Of a stretch of 29,642 bases of DNA, positions 4,265 to 25,739 are shown piece after piece (the first letter of the stretch is position 1; every line of letters starts with the position of its first letter). The stretch lies in the IMG/VR virus record IMGVR_UViG_3300030047_000097, positions 1-29,642 of that record; one strand, 5' to 3'. The notes beneath the pieces are model-generated. The model searched no databases. It was not told the DNA's origin and saw only the letters and a program-made list of their open reading frames with translations. The position numbers were made by a program, and so were the translations under genes. This stretch comes from a virus.

Positions 4265-4618
4265 GTGAAAGCGGCTAAATTAAATCTTCCAGTTATTGAA
4301 AAAGGGGCGACGTGGCGGCATTCACTCATCTGGAATGACAGCAACGGCCAGCCCATTAATTTAACGGATTGCACGGCTAAAATGCAAGTTCGGGAAACTG
4401 TGGAATCGGCTTCGTTTTTACTGGAGCTCAGCACCGAAAACAACCGGATTACGATTACCCCATCCATTGGAAAAATGGACTTTTACATAGCAGCAGCCGA
4501 TACCGATGCGCTAATCGGTGCAGGCGGTTTATATGATCTGGAAATTTATTTTTTAAATAGCGATACCGTGCGCCTGTGCTACGGTGTAGTTATGTTTAGC
4601 GAGCAAATAACGAGATAA
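4265..4618 (+). CDS. Small phage structural protein, first gene of fibre island
   Basis: 117 aa from a GTG start with AAGGA 6 nt upstream. The opening KLNLPVIEKGATWRHSLIWND, followed by INLTDCTAKMQVRE and a strand-rich C-terminal part, resembles the N-terminal domains of short baseplate/fibre-associated proteins (BppU-like folds) encoded just before collagen-like or fibre genes in many phages. It may be an adaptor between the tail tip and the fibres encoded next; that role is inferred. It is followed 4 nt later by the collagen-like gene and is clearly co-transcribed with it. Confidence 0.6.
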   Translation: MKAAKLNLPVIEKGATWRHSLIWNDSNGQPINLTDCTAKMQVRETVESASFLLELSTENNRITITPSIGKMDFYIAAADTDALIGAGGLYDLEIYFLNSDTVRLCYGVVMFSEQITR

Positions 4619-4622
4619 CCCT

Positions 4623-5093
4623 ATGTCTTTTTTTATTACCCCCGTTATTGATGTTTTAATATCGTCTGAGCAGGGGCCACCAGGACCACCAGGACCACCA
4701 GGGGAGGCTGAAACTTCGGTAGTTTCACTCTCTGATAGTGACAATGATGTGGTGTTAAATGCCCAGGGGCAGTCTAATTTTTCGATAAGACTCACTAAAA
4801 ACCATGTTCTGTTAAACCCTGTAAATCTTGGCGATGGCAGGTTAATTAGAATAGCGTGTACACAAGATTCAGTCGGTAAGAGGCTATTAACCTACGATAC
4901 TTCTTACCGATTCCCGAAGGGGGCGGCGGCCTTAAGCACTGAGGCGGGTGCATTGGATTTGATAGTTTGCTACTACGACGGCGCCTATCTACTCTGTACA
5001 CTGTATAAAGGGTTTGCTGCCCCGGTAGCCTATACCCCAGGGACTTTCGATTTTTCCGCCATGCAAGCATCGGGCTTAACAGCACTTATATAA
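4623..5093 (+). CDS. Collagen-like tail/fibre protein, 156 aa
   Basis: After a short N-terminus (MSFFITPVIDVLISSEQ) there are three Gly-Pro-Pro triplets followed by GE. This collagen-type Gly-X-Y run is used in phage fibres to drive or lock trimers. The remaining ~125 residues are beta-rich and contain DVVLNAQGQSNFSIRL and ALDLIVCYYDGAYLL, which looks like a small jelly-roll-type tip domain. The triplet DNA (CCACCAGGA repeats, about 4677-4700) is nearly identical from copy to copy and could expand or contract by slippage. It sits between a putative adaptor and two larger fibre proteins. Confidence 0.7.
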   Translation: MSFFITPVIDVLISSEQGPPGPPGPPGEAETSVVSLSDSDNDVVLNAQGQSNFSIRLTKNHVLLNPVNLGDGRLIRIACTQDSVGKRLLTYDTSYRFPKGAAALSTEAGALDLIVCYYDGAYLLCTLYKGFAAPVAYTPGTFDFSAMQASGLTALI

Positions 5094-5106
5094 AAGGAAA
5101 ATACTC

Positions 5107-5988
5107 ATGCCAACTTCCATACAAGTCCTTGACGCCACGGGAACCCCTCAAACGATCAACACAAACCCGGCTTTAGGCCAGGCGTTGGCAAATGCCAGTA
5201 TTCCGGTTGTGCTGGCTTCCGACCAAGGGGCGCTGCCGCTAGCATCGGGCGCGTCAACCTCGGCCAAACAGGATACCGGAAATACATCGATTGCCAGTAT
5301 TGATGCAAAAACGCCCGCTTTAGTTACCGGACGAATCCCCGTTGATGGGTCAGCCGTAACGCAACCTGTTTCAGCCGCGTCCTTGCCGCTTCCTACGGGT
5401 GCCGCCCGGGAAACGGGCGGCAATCTGGCTGCCATATTAGCCGCCCTGGAATCTGGATCATCGACTGCTTTACTAGCAGGTGAGTTACATATAGGTTCAG
5501 TATCAGGCCAGAGTGCGTTAGTTTCCGCCAGTTATGCCCGGCCTGCCAATACGGATTATTATACGGCGCTTGATGTTTTTTCAAATTCAACATCTGCGCC
5601 CGCATTGTTATCATTCACTAATATTGCACGCGTTAACGCGGGCTCAGGTTATATCGTTAAAGCGCGGTTAGTCACTGACCAGGCATCCAATGCGTCCCGG
5701 TTCAGATTGCATTTATTTCATACAGCCATTTCACCGATTGCTGATAATTCGCCCTTTGCATCCCTGTATGCGAACAGGGCCAATAAAATAGGCTTTATTG
5801 ATTTTGATGCAATGGGTGCGGAAGGCTCTGGGTCTGATTGTGCGGAATCGAGCAATTTTTCAACCCGTTTAAAATTCGTGTGCGCAGCCGCATCACGCAG
5901 CCTTTATGGCATTTTGGAGGTCCGTGATAATTTTACGCCGACCTCGGGGCAATCAATTTTTGTAGAACTAACGGCAGAAATAGACTGA
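5107..5988 (+). CDS. Putative tail fibre / receptor-binding structural protein, 293 aa
   Basis: From the ATG at 5107 with an AAGGA ribosome site. The first half is low in charge and rich in Ala, Ser, Thr and Gly. It contains the SIPVVLASDQ and GASTSAKQDTGNTSIASID patterns that recur in tail-tip/fibre proteins of many environmental phages. The second half (from about residue 130) is a probable beta-sandwich carrying ALDVFSNSTSAPALLSFTNI and RFRLHLFHTAISPIADNSPF. No enzyme motif is visible. It probably forms part of the adsorption apparatus with its neighbours. Domain names are inference. Confidence 0.65.
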   Translation: MPTSIQVLDATGTPQTINTNPALGQALANASIPVVLASDQGALPLASGASTSAKQDTGNTSIASIDAKTPALVTGRIPVDGSAVTQPVSAASLPLPTGAARETGGNLAAILAALESGSSTALLAGELHIGSVSGQSALVSASYARPANTDYYTALDVFSNSTSAPALLSFTNIARVNAGSGYIVKARLVTDQASNASRFRLHLFHTAISPIADNSPFASLYANRANKIGFIDFDAMGAEGSGSDCAESSNFSTRLKFVCAAASRSLYGILEVRDNFTPTSGQSIFVELTAEID

Positions 5989-5992
5989 TTTT

Positions 5993-7444
5993 ATGAACCC
6001 TGCAACCAAACAGCTTATAGTAACTACGCCACGTACTAAGCTCTTTTCATTTGATGAGATAGGCTCCGGTTTTGGCGGTCCCACTGTTATTAATAGTGGG
6101 AAATTATATTGGCTTGCCTTAAATGGAATGGCTGTTTCCGCATGGATTGGCAGAATCAAGGGTACTTCCTGTTCAATTAAAGTCCGCAATGCCGGGGATG
6201 ATTATTCATCCATCATGGTCAGTGTCGATGGCAAAAAGGCGGTCTCTGCTATTCCCTACGGAAGCGGCGACATTCATTATTTGTTTAAAGACCTGGAAGA
6301 CACGCTGCATACCATCGTTGTCATGCCGGGCGCAGGGGCTTATTATCAATATTTTTCCATAACTGACCCGGCCATTTTTGCAGTCACCGGTGCAAGCCCT
6401 GAAATCATACCGGCCAATACGATAATTTCCGCAGGGGATTTTCAGGCCAATACGGTCCAGTCCGGGTTTTTTGAAAGTTATAGCCAAGGTGGAAACACGC
6501 AAACGGGAACGGTTCCGGCAACCCTGTTAAGCCGTGATTACGGTGGCGGAAATCCGGGCGGTTGCAGCACGATCTGCTTTAAAAGCGACGCTAGCCACAT
6601 GATCATAACCTCAAACAGCCATTGTTTGTTTGTGTGTATAGATGGAACCACTACCACCCGCTATGGCACTGAAAAAACCGGGGACAATACCAATAATCTG
6701 GGCGCAACTCCCTTACCCTTTCCACTATCCGGCAATACTTGGGATGCTCAGGGGCCGTTCTTTTCAAACTTTTCCGTCTCGTGGACGATTGCATTGCCCC
6801 CAGGAACGCATACCTATAACGTCTGGACAGGCGGACTGCCCAACAGTTATAACCTGTTTGTTATCGGCCTGGATAAACCGTTGCTAACCTTGCCGGGAAC
6901 ACCCAAACGTCTGGACCAGTTCGGCGATAGCCTGACCGCCGGGCTTGCGTCAACGTCAATGGGCGAAGTCGAGACAATGAGAGTCGCGGCCTATTACGGT
7001 TATGCGGGTGCGACTTACGGGCTATCCGGTGAAACGATTGGGCAATTTGCAACCCGTCTGCCCAATCTGTTAAACGGCATAACAGCCACCGCCAATGATG
7101 TGGCCGTCATTGCCCAAGGGCGCAATGGTTCCAGCACGGATAATCCCTTGAGCGGTGGCGATATAACCGCTTATACCGGCTTTATTACCGCACTGTTGGC
7201 GAAAGGTTACGGCAAGGTGCTTTGCCGTGGCATCATCCCGGAACAATCCCCTAACCGTTGGACAGCGAATAATGCGTCCATAGCCGCTATTGTTTCAGGT
7301 CTGGCAGACTCCCGCGTTGTCTATGTTCCAGTGACTTCGTGGGCTGACCAATGGGTTTCCTGTGGCGATGGCACGCATCCCGGTGATTTTGGTTATACGC
7401 AATGGACGGCGTTGGCCATCGCGTCTTATAACGGGCTAATTTGA
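5993..7444 (+). CDS. Tail protein with C-terminal SGNH/GDSL hydrolase domain
   Basis: 483 aa. The first ~300 residues are beta-rich and Gly-rich, as in a fibre or adsorption domain. The C-terminal ~170 residues are an SGNH-fold esterase: block I FGDSLTAG with nucleophile Ser313, a Gly block around ATYGLSGET, block III GRNGSS with Asn378, and block V DGTHPGDFGY with Asp459 and His462. The catalytic set looks complete. Phage SGNH domains commonly deacetylate surface polysaccharide or peptidoglycan, so a role in host surface recognition or trimming is likely, though the substrate cannot be read. The start lies 4 nt after the preceding stop with a poor ribosome site, so coupling is likely. Confidence 0.8.
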   Translation: MNPATKQLIVTTPRTKLFSFDEIGSGFGGPTVINSGKLYWLALNGMAVSAWIGRIKGTSCSIKVRNAGDDYSSIMVSVDGKKAVSAIPYGSGDIHYLFKDLEDTLHTIVVMPGAGAYYQYFSITDPAIFAVTGASPEIIPANTIISAGDFQANTVQSGFFESYSQGGNTQTGTVPATLLSRDYGGGNPGGCSTICFKSDASHMIITSNSHCLFVCIDGTTTTRYGTEKTGDNTNNLGATPLPFPLSGNTWDAQGPFFSNFSVSWTIALPPGTHTYNVWTGGLPNSYNLFVIGLDKPLLTLPGTPKRLDQFGDSLTAGLASTSMGEVETMRVAAYYGYAGATYGLSGETIGQFATRLPNLLNGITATANDVAVIAQGRNGSSTDNPLSGGDITAYTGFITALLAKGYGKVLCRGIIPEQSPNRWTANNASIAAIVSGLADSRVVYVPVTSWADQWVSCGDGTHPGDFGYTQWTALAIASYNGLI

Positions 7445-7482
7445 TTGAATAACCGTATTTCCGGCCACTCAATCAAAACAAA

Positions 7483-7668
7483 ATGATCCCCGATACCGAA
7501 CTTTTGGACGAGGCACTCCCTGTCGACGCTTATGCTGAAGAATGCCCCCGCTGTGATAATACCAAGCTGGGGATAATGATTACCCTACGGCTGCAATACT
7601 GCCCATGCTGTCATACCTGGCTTAGATACGCTAAAGGGTCGCCTAGCAAGATTGAGCAGGGTTATTGA
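7483..7668 (+). CDS. Small zinc-ribbon-like protein, 61 aa
   Basis: Contains ECPRCDNTKLG and, about 15 residues later, YCPCCHTWLRY, giving two CxxC-type knuckles (with an extra Cys) that fit a zinc ribbon. There are no good ribosome-site bases before the ATG, only an A-rich stretch, so expression may rely on read-through from the tail gene 38 nt upstream. Function unknown; DNA, RNA or protein binding are all possible. It is the last gene before a terminator-like hairpin. Confidence 0.55.
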   Translation: MIPDTELLDEALPVDAYAEECPRCDNTKLGIMITLRLQYCPCCHTWLRYAKGSPSKIEQGY

Positions 7669-7701
7669 CAGCCGCCGGAAACTAAACTAATCTATACCTT
7701 A

Positions 7702-7758
7702 GAGGCTTGATAACCTCATCACAAGCGGAAACCGCACCCGAAAGAAAGCGGTTTTTTT
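7702..7758 (+). terminator. Terminator at the end of the fibre island, with competing upstream hairpins
   Basis: AAACCGC (7729-7735) pairs with GCGGTTT (7748-7754) and is followed by T's to 7758: a rho-independent terminator. The same CCGC (7732-7735) can instead pair with GCGG at 7725-7728, destroying the terminator. Upstream, GAGG (7702-7705) can pair with CCTC (7714-7717), and GCTTG (7705-7709) with CAAGC (7722-7726). These mutually exclusive pairings resemble an attenuator. The terminator works only rightwards, since no T-run follows it on the minus strand. Confidence 0.65.
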
Positions 7759-7778
7759 ATGTCTACGATTTTAGTTTT

Positions 7779-7857
7779 GAGTTAGGAGGGTTAGAGAATA
7801 ACCAATATCTAACGCAGACTTGTGACTGTTATCAACCTCCTAACTCTCCTTCGGGAG
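7779..7857 (+). other. Structured untranslated leader before the lipoprotein gene
   Basis: GAGTTAGGAGG (7779-7789) is perfectly complementary to CCTCCTAACTC (7836-7846), an 11-bp stem with a 46-nt loop. Directly after it CTCC-TTCG-GGAG (7846-7857) forms a UUCG tetraloop hairpin. A frame spans this region (7707-7895) but begins at TTG, runs through the terminator and shows no family features, so I treat 7669-7887 as non-coding. It may be a regulatory leader or a small RNA. Confidence 0.5.
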
Positions 7858-7887
7858 CTTTCTTGATAAAAAGCACAGGAGACAGAA

Positions 7888-8169
7888 ATGTCTAATCTAA
7901 TCGCATTAATTTTGGCAATAATGGCATTAACTGGCTGCTCTGTACTTCCACCAGAAAAAATACTAGCTGATTTTTCTTCTAGTGCTATCGGCTGCCCGTC
8001 AAGCGAAATAACGGTATCCAGTTGGGAATATCACAGAAATGCACTTGTAACAGAATATTTCGCAGAATGTCACGGTAAAAAGTTTGTTTGTAACAAGGCA
8101 AATGATTACTCACTTGGCAATTTTGCACATACCTATAATCCAGCCACATGCAAAGAAATGTTGAAATAA
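7888..8169 (+). CDS. Small lipoprotein, 93 aa
   Basis: Starts with a good ribosome site (CAGGAGA, 7 nt before the ATG). The N-terminus MSNLIALILAIMALTGC is a lipoprotein signal with an LTGC lipobox, so the mature protein would be acylated on Cys17 and anchored in the inner or outer membrane. The mature part of about 77 residues has four further Cys (GCPSSE, ECHG, VCNK, TCKEM), suggesting disulfides in the periplasm. It is not a known structural gene and sits at the edge of the opposite-strand island. Prophage lipoproteins of this size often act in superinfection exclusion or lysogenic conversion; that role is inferred. It converges on the gpG-like gene with a 28-bp gap. Confidence 0.75.
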   Translation: MSNLIALILAIMALTGCSVLPPEKILADFSSSAIGCPSSEITVSSWEYHRNALVTEYFAECHGKKFVCNKANDYSLGNFAHTYNPATCKEMLK

Positions 8170-8197
8170 ACAACACACGCATACTGTGATTTATTTA

Positions 8198-8611
8198 TTA
8201 TGTCACCAGATACCGGTGAATAATATCCAATACCTCACGCTCCCAACTCTCTGGAAGCCCGCCCTCTTGAGTGGGCAAAAAGGCGCGTTGGGGCGAGCCC
8301 AAGCCTAGCTGGTGGTACTTGCCATAGGCCACGTTAGTACCAATAATTGCTTCCAGGGCGCTGGCGTTCGAGGTGATGGAGCCTTTTAGCCGTCCAGTGT
8401 CATTCAAGGGTTTGGAACTGCCATCTTTACGGGGTTTTTTGAGTGGCAACCAAGGCGAGCCGTAAGGGTCTGCGGCATCGGTAAAGGTCAGGTCTACCAA
8501 ACTGGCGACGTGTTCGCCGATGTCGGTCATAACCGGTTCCATGTGCGTCAGGCGCTGGCTTAACTGCTGTAAGGCGAGGTCTACGGCGGCGGTTTCTATC
8601 TGGATGATCAT
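8198..8611 (-). CDS. Mu gpG-like virion morphogenesis protein
   Basis: 137 aa from the ATG at 8611 (a TTG at 8617 is the alternative). Matching features are the N-terminal helix (VDLALQQLSQRLTHMEPVM), FTDAADPYGSPWLPLKK, LNDTGRLKGSIT, TNVAYGKYHQLG and PQRAFLP. These are signature motifs of the Mu gpG / P2 gpS tail-completion family. These proteins complete the head-tail junction. It follows the gpF-like gene as in Mu. The leftward operon is interrupted after it by the plus-strand island. Confidence 0.9.
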   Translation of the reverse strand: MIIQIETAAVDLALQQLSQRLTHMEPVMTDIGEHVASLVDLTFTDAADPYGSPWLPLKKPRKDGSSKPLNDTGRLKGSITSNASALEAIIGTNVAYGKYHQLGLGSPQRAFLPTQEGGLPESWEREVLDIIHRYLVT

Positions 8612-20194: not shown

Positions 20195-20338
20195 CGCGTT
20201 ATTCCTTCAATAACCCCTTAAAAAAGAGAGCCTGGCAGCACCGTAAGGGACAGCGTTTTCAGTCTCGATAACCTAGCCACGCTCAAACTCAGTTGCTTTA
20301 CTTTGTCTTGATTACTGGTTAATTACTGCTTCACATAT

Positions 20339-25037: not shown

Positions 25038-25061
25038 TTTTTATGAACAGTGGATAAATGT

Positions 25062-25739
25062 ATGAATGACGCAATACAAATACACGGCATAACCATCAAC
25101 GTCGATGCCGATAACCGCTATAGTCTTACCGACTTGTATAACGCCGCTAAAAAAATGGGATTGGCTGATGAAAGTGATAGACCGACCGATTGGCTAAGGA
25201 CAAAAACAGCTCAAAAGTATGTCGATTTTTTAGAAATTAACGGTGTAAATTCTCACTTTGGTGTGGGCATCCAGCCTATCGAAATAATTAAGGGTGGTGA
25301 GTTTTCAGGTACGTATGCGGTCAAAGATTTGGTATACAGTTACGCGATTTGGTTAAGCGTAGAGTTCCACCATGAAGTCATTCAAACCTACGATAAAAAA
25401 GTTACCGAAGAACACGCCCAACTCGAAGAACTACAAGCCAAACTAAAAACCTCTATCCCTAAAGACCCTAATTGTATTTCCAGCGTCATCGGCGGAAGTC
25501 CTCTTGAAGCCCATAAGTTTTTTAAAAAGATGGAAGTATTAGACTTGGTTAGAATAGAAATCGACTATAAACCCGTCTATAAAAAATTTATTACTGAAAA
25601 GGGTTGGGCTTACTTACAAGGCTACAGCAAGGATGGAATTGTACGAGTGGAACCGGAAATGCACAACGCGCTGATGGCGCTGGTGGCTAATTTTGGCAAG
25701 GGTAATCAGATTGATATGTTCGGTAGTTTAAAAGAATAA
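25062..25739 (+). CDS. KilA-N domain protein, probable antirepressor
   Basis: 225 aa from the ATG at 25062 (a GTG at 25050 is possible). Residues ~5-110 are the KilA-N fold: GITINVDADNRYSLTDLYNA, PTDWLRTKTAQKYVDFLE and a block containing SGTYAVKDLVYSYAIWLSVE. After a coiled linker (EHAQLEELQAKLKT) there is a C-terminal DNA/antirepressor-type domain (ISSVIGGSPLEAHKFFKKME, KGWAYLQGYSKDG). KilA-N proteins bind DNA and often counter phage repressors. Because the repressor here cannot self-cleave, this gene is the best candidate for the induction switch. It sits late in the repressed early operon. Confidence 0.75.
   Translation: MNDAIQIHGITINVDADNRYSLTDLYNAAKKMGLADESDRPTDWLRTKTAQKYVDFLEINGVNSHFGVGIQPIEIIKGGEFSGTYAVKDLVYSYAIWLSVEFHHEVIQTYDKKVTEEHAQLEELQAKLKTSIPKDPNCISSVIGGSPLEAHKFFKKMEVLDLVRIEIDYKPVYKKFITEKGWAYLQGYSKDGIVRVEPEMHNALMALVANFGKGNQIDMFGSLKE

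Follow-up and report, generated by a model that had tools for sequence, protein, structure and literature searches.

A predicted C4-type antisense-RNA control module related to sRNA-Xcc1 in front of a phage lipoprotein gene

The non-coding stretch ahead of the lipoprotein gene

What is the function of the structured non-coding sequence that separates the fibre genes from a lipoprotein gene in a temperate phage? The DNA analysed here (the window) is a virus record of 29,642 bases with a Mu-like head gene set. A first-pass annotation made from the letters alone had considered a conditional leader, a small regulatory RNA, an attenuator and a riboswitch. Our analysis indicates that positions 7665–7887 very probably constitute a C4-type antisense-RNA control module of the sRNA-Xcc1 subtype, which governs the lipoprotein gene at 7888. 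Its elements follow each other in the order promoter-like site, a1, b1, terminator, junction RNA (containing b' and a'), UUCG hairpin, a2, b2 with the Shine-Dalgarno sequence, and start codon (Table 1).

Table 1. Features of the predicted control module and of the gene behind it (positions are those of the window).
Feature	Position	Strand	Sequence	Basis or remark
Promoter-like site	7665–7693	+	TTGACA-N17-TAATCT	Read from sequence; expected transcription start near 7700
Hairpin with a1	7702–7717	+	GAGG-CTTGATAA-CCTC	Loop and 3' side contain site a1
Site a1	7706–7714	+	CTTGATAAC	TTGATAAC is an 8-bp Watson-Crick match to a'; shuffles, p 0.0034
Site b1	7719–7725	+	TCACAAG	7-bp match to b'; shuffles, p 0.0032
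Alternative hairpin	7725–7735	+	GCGG-AAA-CCGC	Exclusive with the terminator; from sequence
Intrinsic terminator	7729–7758	+	AAACCGC-ACCCGAAAGAAA-GCGGTTTTTTT	From sequence
Three-way-junction antisense RNA (C4-type, sRNA-Xcc1 subtype; predicted)	7779–7846	+		RF02221 match, leave-one-out model, covariation
Helix P1	7779–7789/7836–7846	+		
Helix P2	7790–7795/7808–7813	+		
Helix P3	7815–7817/7826–7828	+		
b'	7819–7825	+	CTTGTGA	In the P3 loop; exact complement of b1; matches b2 over 6 bp with one G-U
a'	7828–7835	+	GTTATCAA	Between P3 and P1; complementary to a1 and a2
UUCG hairpin	7846–7857	+	CTCC-TTCG-GGAG	From sequence
Site a2 (copy of a1)	7862–7869	+	CTTGATAA	7-bp match to a'; shuffles, p 0.005; direct repeat D10
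Site b2 and Shine-Dalgarno sequence	7874–7881	+	CACAGGAG	CACAGG pairs with CUUGUG of b', one G-U
Controlled gene (predicted), 93-residue lipoprotein	7888–8169	+		Open reading frame; lipobox LTGC

The lipoprotein gene belongs to a plus-strand island (4265–8169) that also encodes a fibre, a GDSL esterase and a zinc-ribbon protein. This island is embedded in the minus-strand head operon and is bounded by a Mu-G-like gene (8198) and a Mu-I-like protease (4204). Two further virus records and one contig from a Methylococcaceae MAG carry the stretch without a single difference. A pair of virus contigs that match the window identically (L006, L017) stop at 7747 and 8181, positions which flank most of the segment carrying the RNA and the lipoprotein gene; this segment may be variable between strains. 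Elsewhere in the window, an int-alpA RNA (RF02996) was detected on the minus strand at 20215–20283 with 44 bits, over its gathering score. A protein encoded at 25050–25739 on the plus strand looks KilA-N-like by eye; it has no NCBIfam match and no junction RNA in front of its gene.

All elements named in the first-pass annotation were found in the sequence, among them the mutually exclusive GCGG/CCGC hairpins with the terminator, the perfect inverted repeat of 11 bp enclosing a 46-nt loop, and the UUCG hairpin ahead of the ribosome site of the lipoprotein gene. The CCGC at 7732–7735 is able to pair with the GCGG at 7725–7728 or with that at 7748–7751, the latter choice forming the terminator. 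Our terminator scan missed this element because its loop comprises 12 nt. By pattern search, 33 of 44 loci have a G+C arm with a T-run ahead of the junction RNA. The -10 box of the promoter-like site is poor, matching the consensus at only three of six positions; TTGACA followed after 17 or 18 nt by TATGCT or TACGCT was found at the equivalent place in five other loci. The UUCG hairpin has counterparts at the equivalent place in seven.

DNA similarity searches against phages, plasmids and E. coli genomes returned terminator or chance pieces only. The folding energy on the plus strand was lower than that of shuffled sequences (z -3.2), which alone proves little because the minus strand does equally well (z -4.0). 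That the stretch is more than a product of chance is concluded from covariation, from a model built without the window and from cognate complementarity.

A three-way-junction RNA kept by covariation

The structure of the junction RNA, in which the inverted repeat forms helix P1, has been kept by covariation. A plain alignment of four sequences, which was not fitted to a model, contained 98.7% standard pairs, and 9 of the 19 pairs had changed on both sides. An alignment of 23 distinct sequences was fitted to the model, so that its counts lean towards the structure; it yielded 98.1% standard pairs and double changes in 15 of 19 pairs, a result obtained in none of 500 shuffles. The covariation score for the 23 sequences was 0.695 as compared with 0.214 in shuffles, and slid versions of the structure were at most 49% paired. 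The covariation search in relatives, proposed as a check in the first-pass annotation, has thus given a strong signal.

The leave-one-out model R3 was built from 16 other loci and not from the window, its alignment rows being placed with model R2, whose four seed rows do include the window. R3 matched the window at 7779–7848 with 60.3 bits (E 4.9e-16), and this was its sole match in the 29.6 kb. A match of the early covariance model R1 inside a coding region (L072) was considered to be due to chance and was dropped.

Among the Rfam families, sRNA-Xcc1 (RF02221) is nearest, with a score of 29.9 bits (E 0.0021) for the window against a gathering score of 53 bits. This sub-threshold match is linked to over-threshold members of the family via models R2 and R3. 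A search of Rfam at the gathering score found nothing in the stretch, and RF02221 run over the window's own record gave no match because the score is far below the cut-off. When 351 bases of the window were searched, the models for C4 (RF01695) and c4-a1b1 (RF03163) gave no matches up to E 5, and that for isrK (RF01394) gave none.

An ordinary terminator of the fibre operon followed by an unrelated, fortuitous inverted repeat might look similar, as the terminator does stand behind the fibre genes and short two-copy repeats often arise by chance. We consider such a coincidence next to impossible: the same combination recurs, with covariation, in unrelated phages and genomes, and the covariation of the 23 sequences together with the leave-one-out model already contradicts it.

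The AGGAGG at 7784–7789 had been described as sequestered. It does lie in the first arm and pair with CCTCC, but we rejected its role as a hidden ribosome site, since no gene starts behind it and the relatives keep the pairing with CCTCC. We take it to be one strand of the structure. The RNase P signature of the phage P1 C4 RNA (GGW at the 5' end, RCC behind helix P1) is not clear in the window, and by eye no GGW is present at 7779.

Complementarity of a' and b' to the flanking sites

The loop sequence at 7706–7714 and the sequence at 7862–7869 are copies of one sequence, each of them complementary to 7828–7835, a relationship overlooked in the first-pass annotation. On the plus strand, the a-b tandem occurs only at 7707 and 7863. 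For the window sites alone, a1 together with b1 was recovered in 0 of 5000 shuffles. The b2 site of the window is weak (four Watson-Crick pairs; 6 bp when one G-U is included) and is not significant in the window locus alone.

In 36 loci, a' and b' were set against the two flanks of their own locus and against those of the other loci. The mean exact run was longer for cognate than for swapped flanks throughout: 7.25 versus 5.32 for a' upstream, 6.64 versus 5.30 for b' upstream, 6.08 versus 4.86 for a' downstream, and 6.11 versus 4.88 for b' downstream. In each of these four comparisons the cognate mean was reached in 0 of 20,000 permutations (p<=5e-5). A second set, consisting of eight loci of the host's order and the window, repeated the excess for a1, b1 and a2; b2 was not significant there (p 0.12), and with G-U pairs allowed both b1 and b2 lost significance in this small set. 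Whole-duplex energies, for which the split between cognate and swapped pairs is less clean than for exact runs because the arms are shared, were not relied on. Cofolding energies were not used, as cofolding cannot model loop-loop pairing.

Examples of co-varying pairs are GCTTAGACAC with GTGTCTAAGC in L027, CTTCATACA with TGTATGAAG in L033, and CTACGAG with CTCGTAG in L042, where CTACGAG is found again before the start codon. At the level of sequence, a' and b' co-vary in the relatives with the sites on both sides.

The conservation is accounted for by this co-varying complementarity to a site on either flank, with no need for a ligand, and the earlier proposal of a riboswitch is not supported. 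A structured leader does precede the gene, as would be expected for a riboswitch of unknown ligand. However, the variable loops co-vary with the flanking sites, the genes controlled in the relatives have no common metabolism, and Rfam searches gave no match to a riboswitch family, which makes this interpretation extremely improbable. The conditional leader and the small regulatory RNA are both supported, the leader containing an antisense RNA.

A rival reading is transcription attenuation: the choice between the GCGG/CCGC hairpin and the terminator would decide whether transcription continues into the lipoprotein gene, and it is mainly on this choice in the nascent transcript, not on translation, that the junction RNA would act. 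The alternative pairing, GCG[G/T]..CCGC, is conserved in 27 of the 44 related loci, b1 abuts GCGG, and phage P4 and IsrK provide precedents (PMC4825925). Against this, the competing hairpin has 4 bp only, and a2 and b2, which attenuation does not need, are conserved at the ribosome site. We therefore regard attenuation as the main mode of action as rather unlikely. What stands of the attenuator proposed before is the alternative pairing, conserved in most relatives, and control at such a terminator would have a precedent in the phage P4 CI RNA (PMC4825925).

Relatives, known systems and a proposed mechanism

When related virus records were searched with 7660–8200, the terminator part was found in two phages (G007 and G009) with a Mu-G-like protein that shares just 34–35% identity with that of the window. 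Both carry the hairpin, terminator, three-way junction, UUCG hairpin and ribosome site, followed by a Rha or BRO gene. Further relatives are a freshwater phage record (L033), in which the next gene is annotated as prophage antirepressor, and the virus records L034 and L036, which score 60.5 and 46.6 bits with RF02221. When 369 genomes sampled from the host's class were scanned with RF02221, 25 had a match at E<=0.001, and 11 of these exceeded the family cut-off. R3, the phage-leader model, matched in 16 of 251 genomes of the host's order, most of them with the same layout. The models derived from the window's phage relatives recover bona fide sRNA-Xcc1 members (L038, L040, L063, L064). The Pfam-matched genes behind the junction comprise five KilA-N, four SymE, three Bro-N, two Rha and one ORF6N; only in the window was a lipoprotein recognised directly behind it.

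The four loci with a SymE gene after an RF02221 match are those same sRNA-Xcc1 members, and they have a and b sites that match on either side of the RNA; in L038, an attC-like GTTRRRY sequence lies just upstream. Two junction RNAs (L100, L103) have a promoter-like site directly upstream and neither a1b1 nor a terminator, and are possible stand-alone C4-type RNAs. Two RF02221 matches (L058, L059) lack the a and b sites and probably fall outside the family.

An alternative is that the RNA came with an antirepressor gene which was later replaced by the lipoprotein gene, leaving the control vestigial. Wherever a close relative has a recognised gene, the gene under control is of the antirepressor type; b2 is weak in the window, and contigs of identical phages end at the borders given above. 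Decay appears unlikely nonetheless, because a1, b1, a2, a', b' and the junction have all been preserved intact and the a and b matches between a1b1 and the junction are exact.

The predicted control module finds its closest parallel of layout in the C4 RNA of phages P1 and P7 (RF01695; targets c4-a1b1, RF03163), where a1, b1, a terminator-like hairpin, C4, a2, b2, the ribosome site and the gene follow in the same order. The phage P1 record is annotated with a1 at 48255, b1 at 48269, C4 at 48343–48419, a2 at 48423, b2 at 48452 and icd at 48470, and the terminator-like hairpin lies between b1 and C4. Helices P1, P2 and P3 correspond, with b' in the P3 loop and a' before the 3' strand of helix P1. 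The P1 C4 RNA is excised by RNase P; part of the ribosome site is covered by its b', and specificity comes from a' (summarised in PMC5320573). Cut at GGW, the processed RNA has about 77 nt. In contrast to this system, helix P1 has 11 bp in the window versus about 17 in phage P1 C4, and the gene encodes a lipoprotein instead of the icd/ant antirepressor operon (antirepressor-type genes in the window's relatives). As the Rfam C4 models miss the window and R3 misses phage P1 C4, the window is best described as working like C4 while being nearest to sRNA-Xcc1 by sequence.

sRNA-Xcc1 is the nearest family by sequence and structure, and its members carry the same a and b sites; unlike them, the window scores below the gathering score and has a shorter P2 that lacks the inner ACCC..GGG stem. 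The RNA accumulates as an 88-nt species in Xanthomonas (PMC2996969), is found upstream of symE in integron cassettes (PMC12444791), and has been treated as a trans-acting sRNA (PMC12189769). In the literature searched, the coverage of which is incomplete so that the point is not certain, we found no statement that sRNA-Xcc1 is C4-like. Acinetobacter already offers examples of C4-type RNAs that are no longer tied to antirepressors (PMC5320573).

IsrK/STnc1160 of prophage Gifsy-1 (RF01394) likewise combines a short terminated RNA with a complementary read-through leader: some transcripts pass the terminator and form an inactive mRNA, which is activated in trans by the short RNA (PMC4825925). It differs in that it controls orf45-anrP, its pairing has been worked out with other helices, and its model misses the window; on the a1b1 region of phage P1 the isrK model reaches 35 bits, under its cut-off. 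The authors of the IsrK work draw a comparison with seqA, CI and seqC of phage P4 (PMC4825925). There, too, an antisense RNA lies between two complementary flanking sites (PMC4825925), but the P4 CI RNA acts by transcription termination, and its likeness to the window is drawn from this description.

We propose that transcripts starting near 7700 would mostly end at 7758 and yield an a1b1 RNA of about 58 nt, while read-through of the terminator would give the leader. The junction RNA would act in cis or be excised as an RNA of about 70–85 nt. Pairing of a' with a2 and of b' with the ribosome site would leave the lipoprotein untranslated, and the short a1b1 RNA would pair with a' and b' instead and thereby relieve repression. 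The terminator itself may in addition be adjusted by pairing at b1/GCGG. Both the processing and the direction of each step we infer from phage P1 and IsrK. By this analogy, repression of the lipoprotein by the junction RNA is likely, the odds for relief by the short RNA are about even, and a part of the GCGG/CCGC switch in termination is possible but doubtful.

Taken more widely, the evidence tends to favour the view that the sRNA-Xcc1 family represents a C4-type control cassette of wide occurrence whose cargo can be exchanged: phage antirepressors, SymE toxins of integron-like cassettes and, here, a phage lipoprotein. One leader would give rise to two RNAs of opposite effect, the short a1b1 RNA that ends at the terminator and the junction RNA. 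A non-coding stretch and, via its relatives, an orphan Rfam family would thus gain a testable function. Links to virulence or carriage in vesicles have been discussed for members of sRNA-Xcc1, and their predicted targets number in the hundreds; on the sequence evidence, the first target to consider is the adjoining gene. The C4-type switch appears to be portable and able to precede a surface-type gene, and a possible lysogenic-conversion gene of methanotroph prophages would come under immunity-style RNA control.

The lipoprotein matches no Pfam family. Homologues of similar make-up occur in other genomes of the host's order, and the junction RNA is absent before each of the four best. Its assignment as a Cor-type exclusion protein was not retained, since the PHROG match (E 0.079) spans the signal peptide only and leaves this role unproven. 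Its amino terminus, MSNLIAL (7888–7912), resembles those of antirepressor-type proteins encoded behind the same RNA, MSTIAL (L079), MNAIAL (L101) and MNALAL (L099). Gene replacement could have left these common first codons behind, or they could be due to chance.
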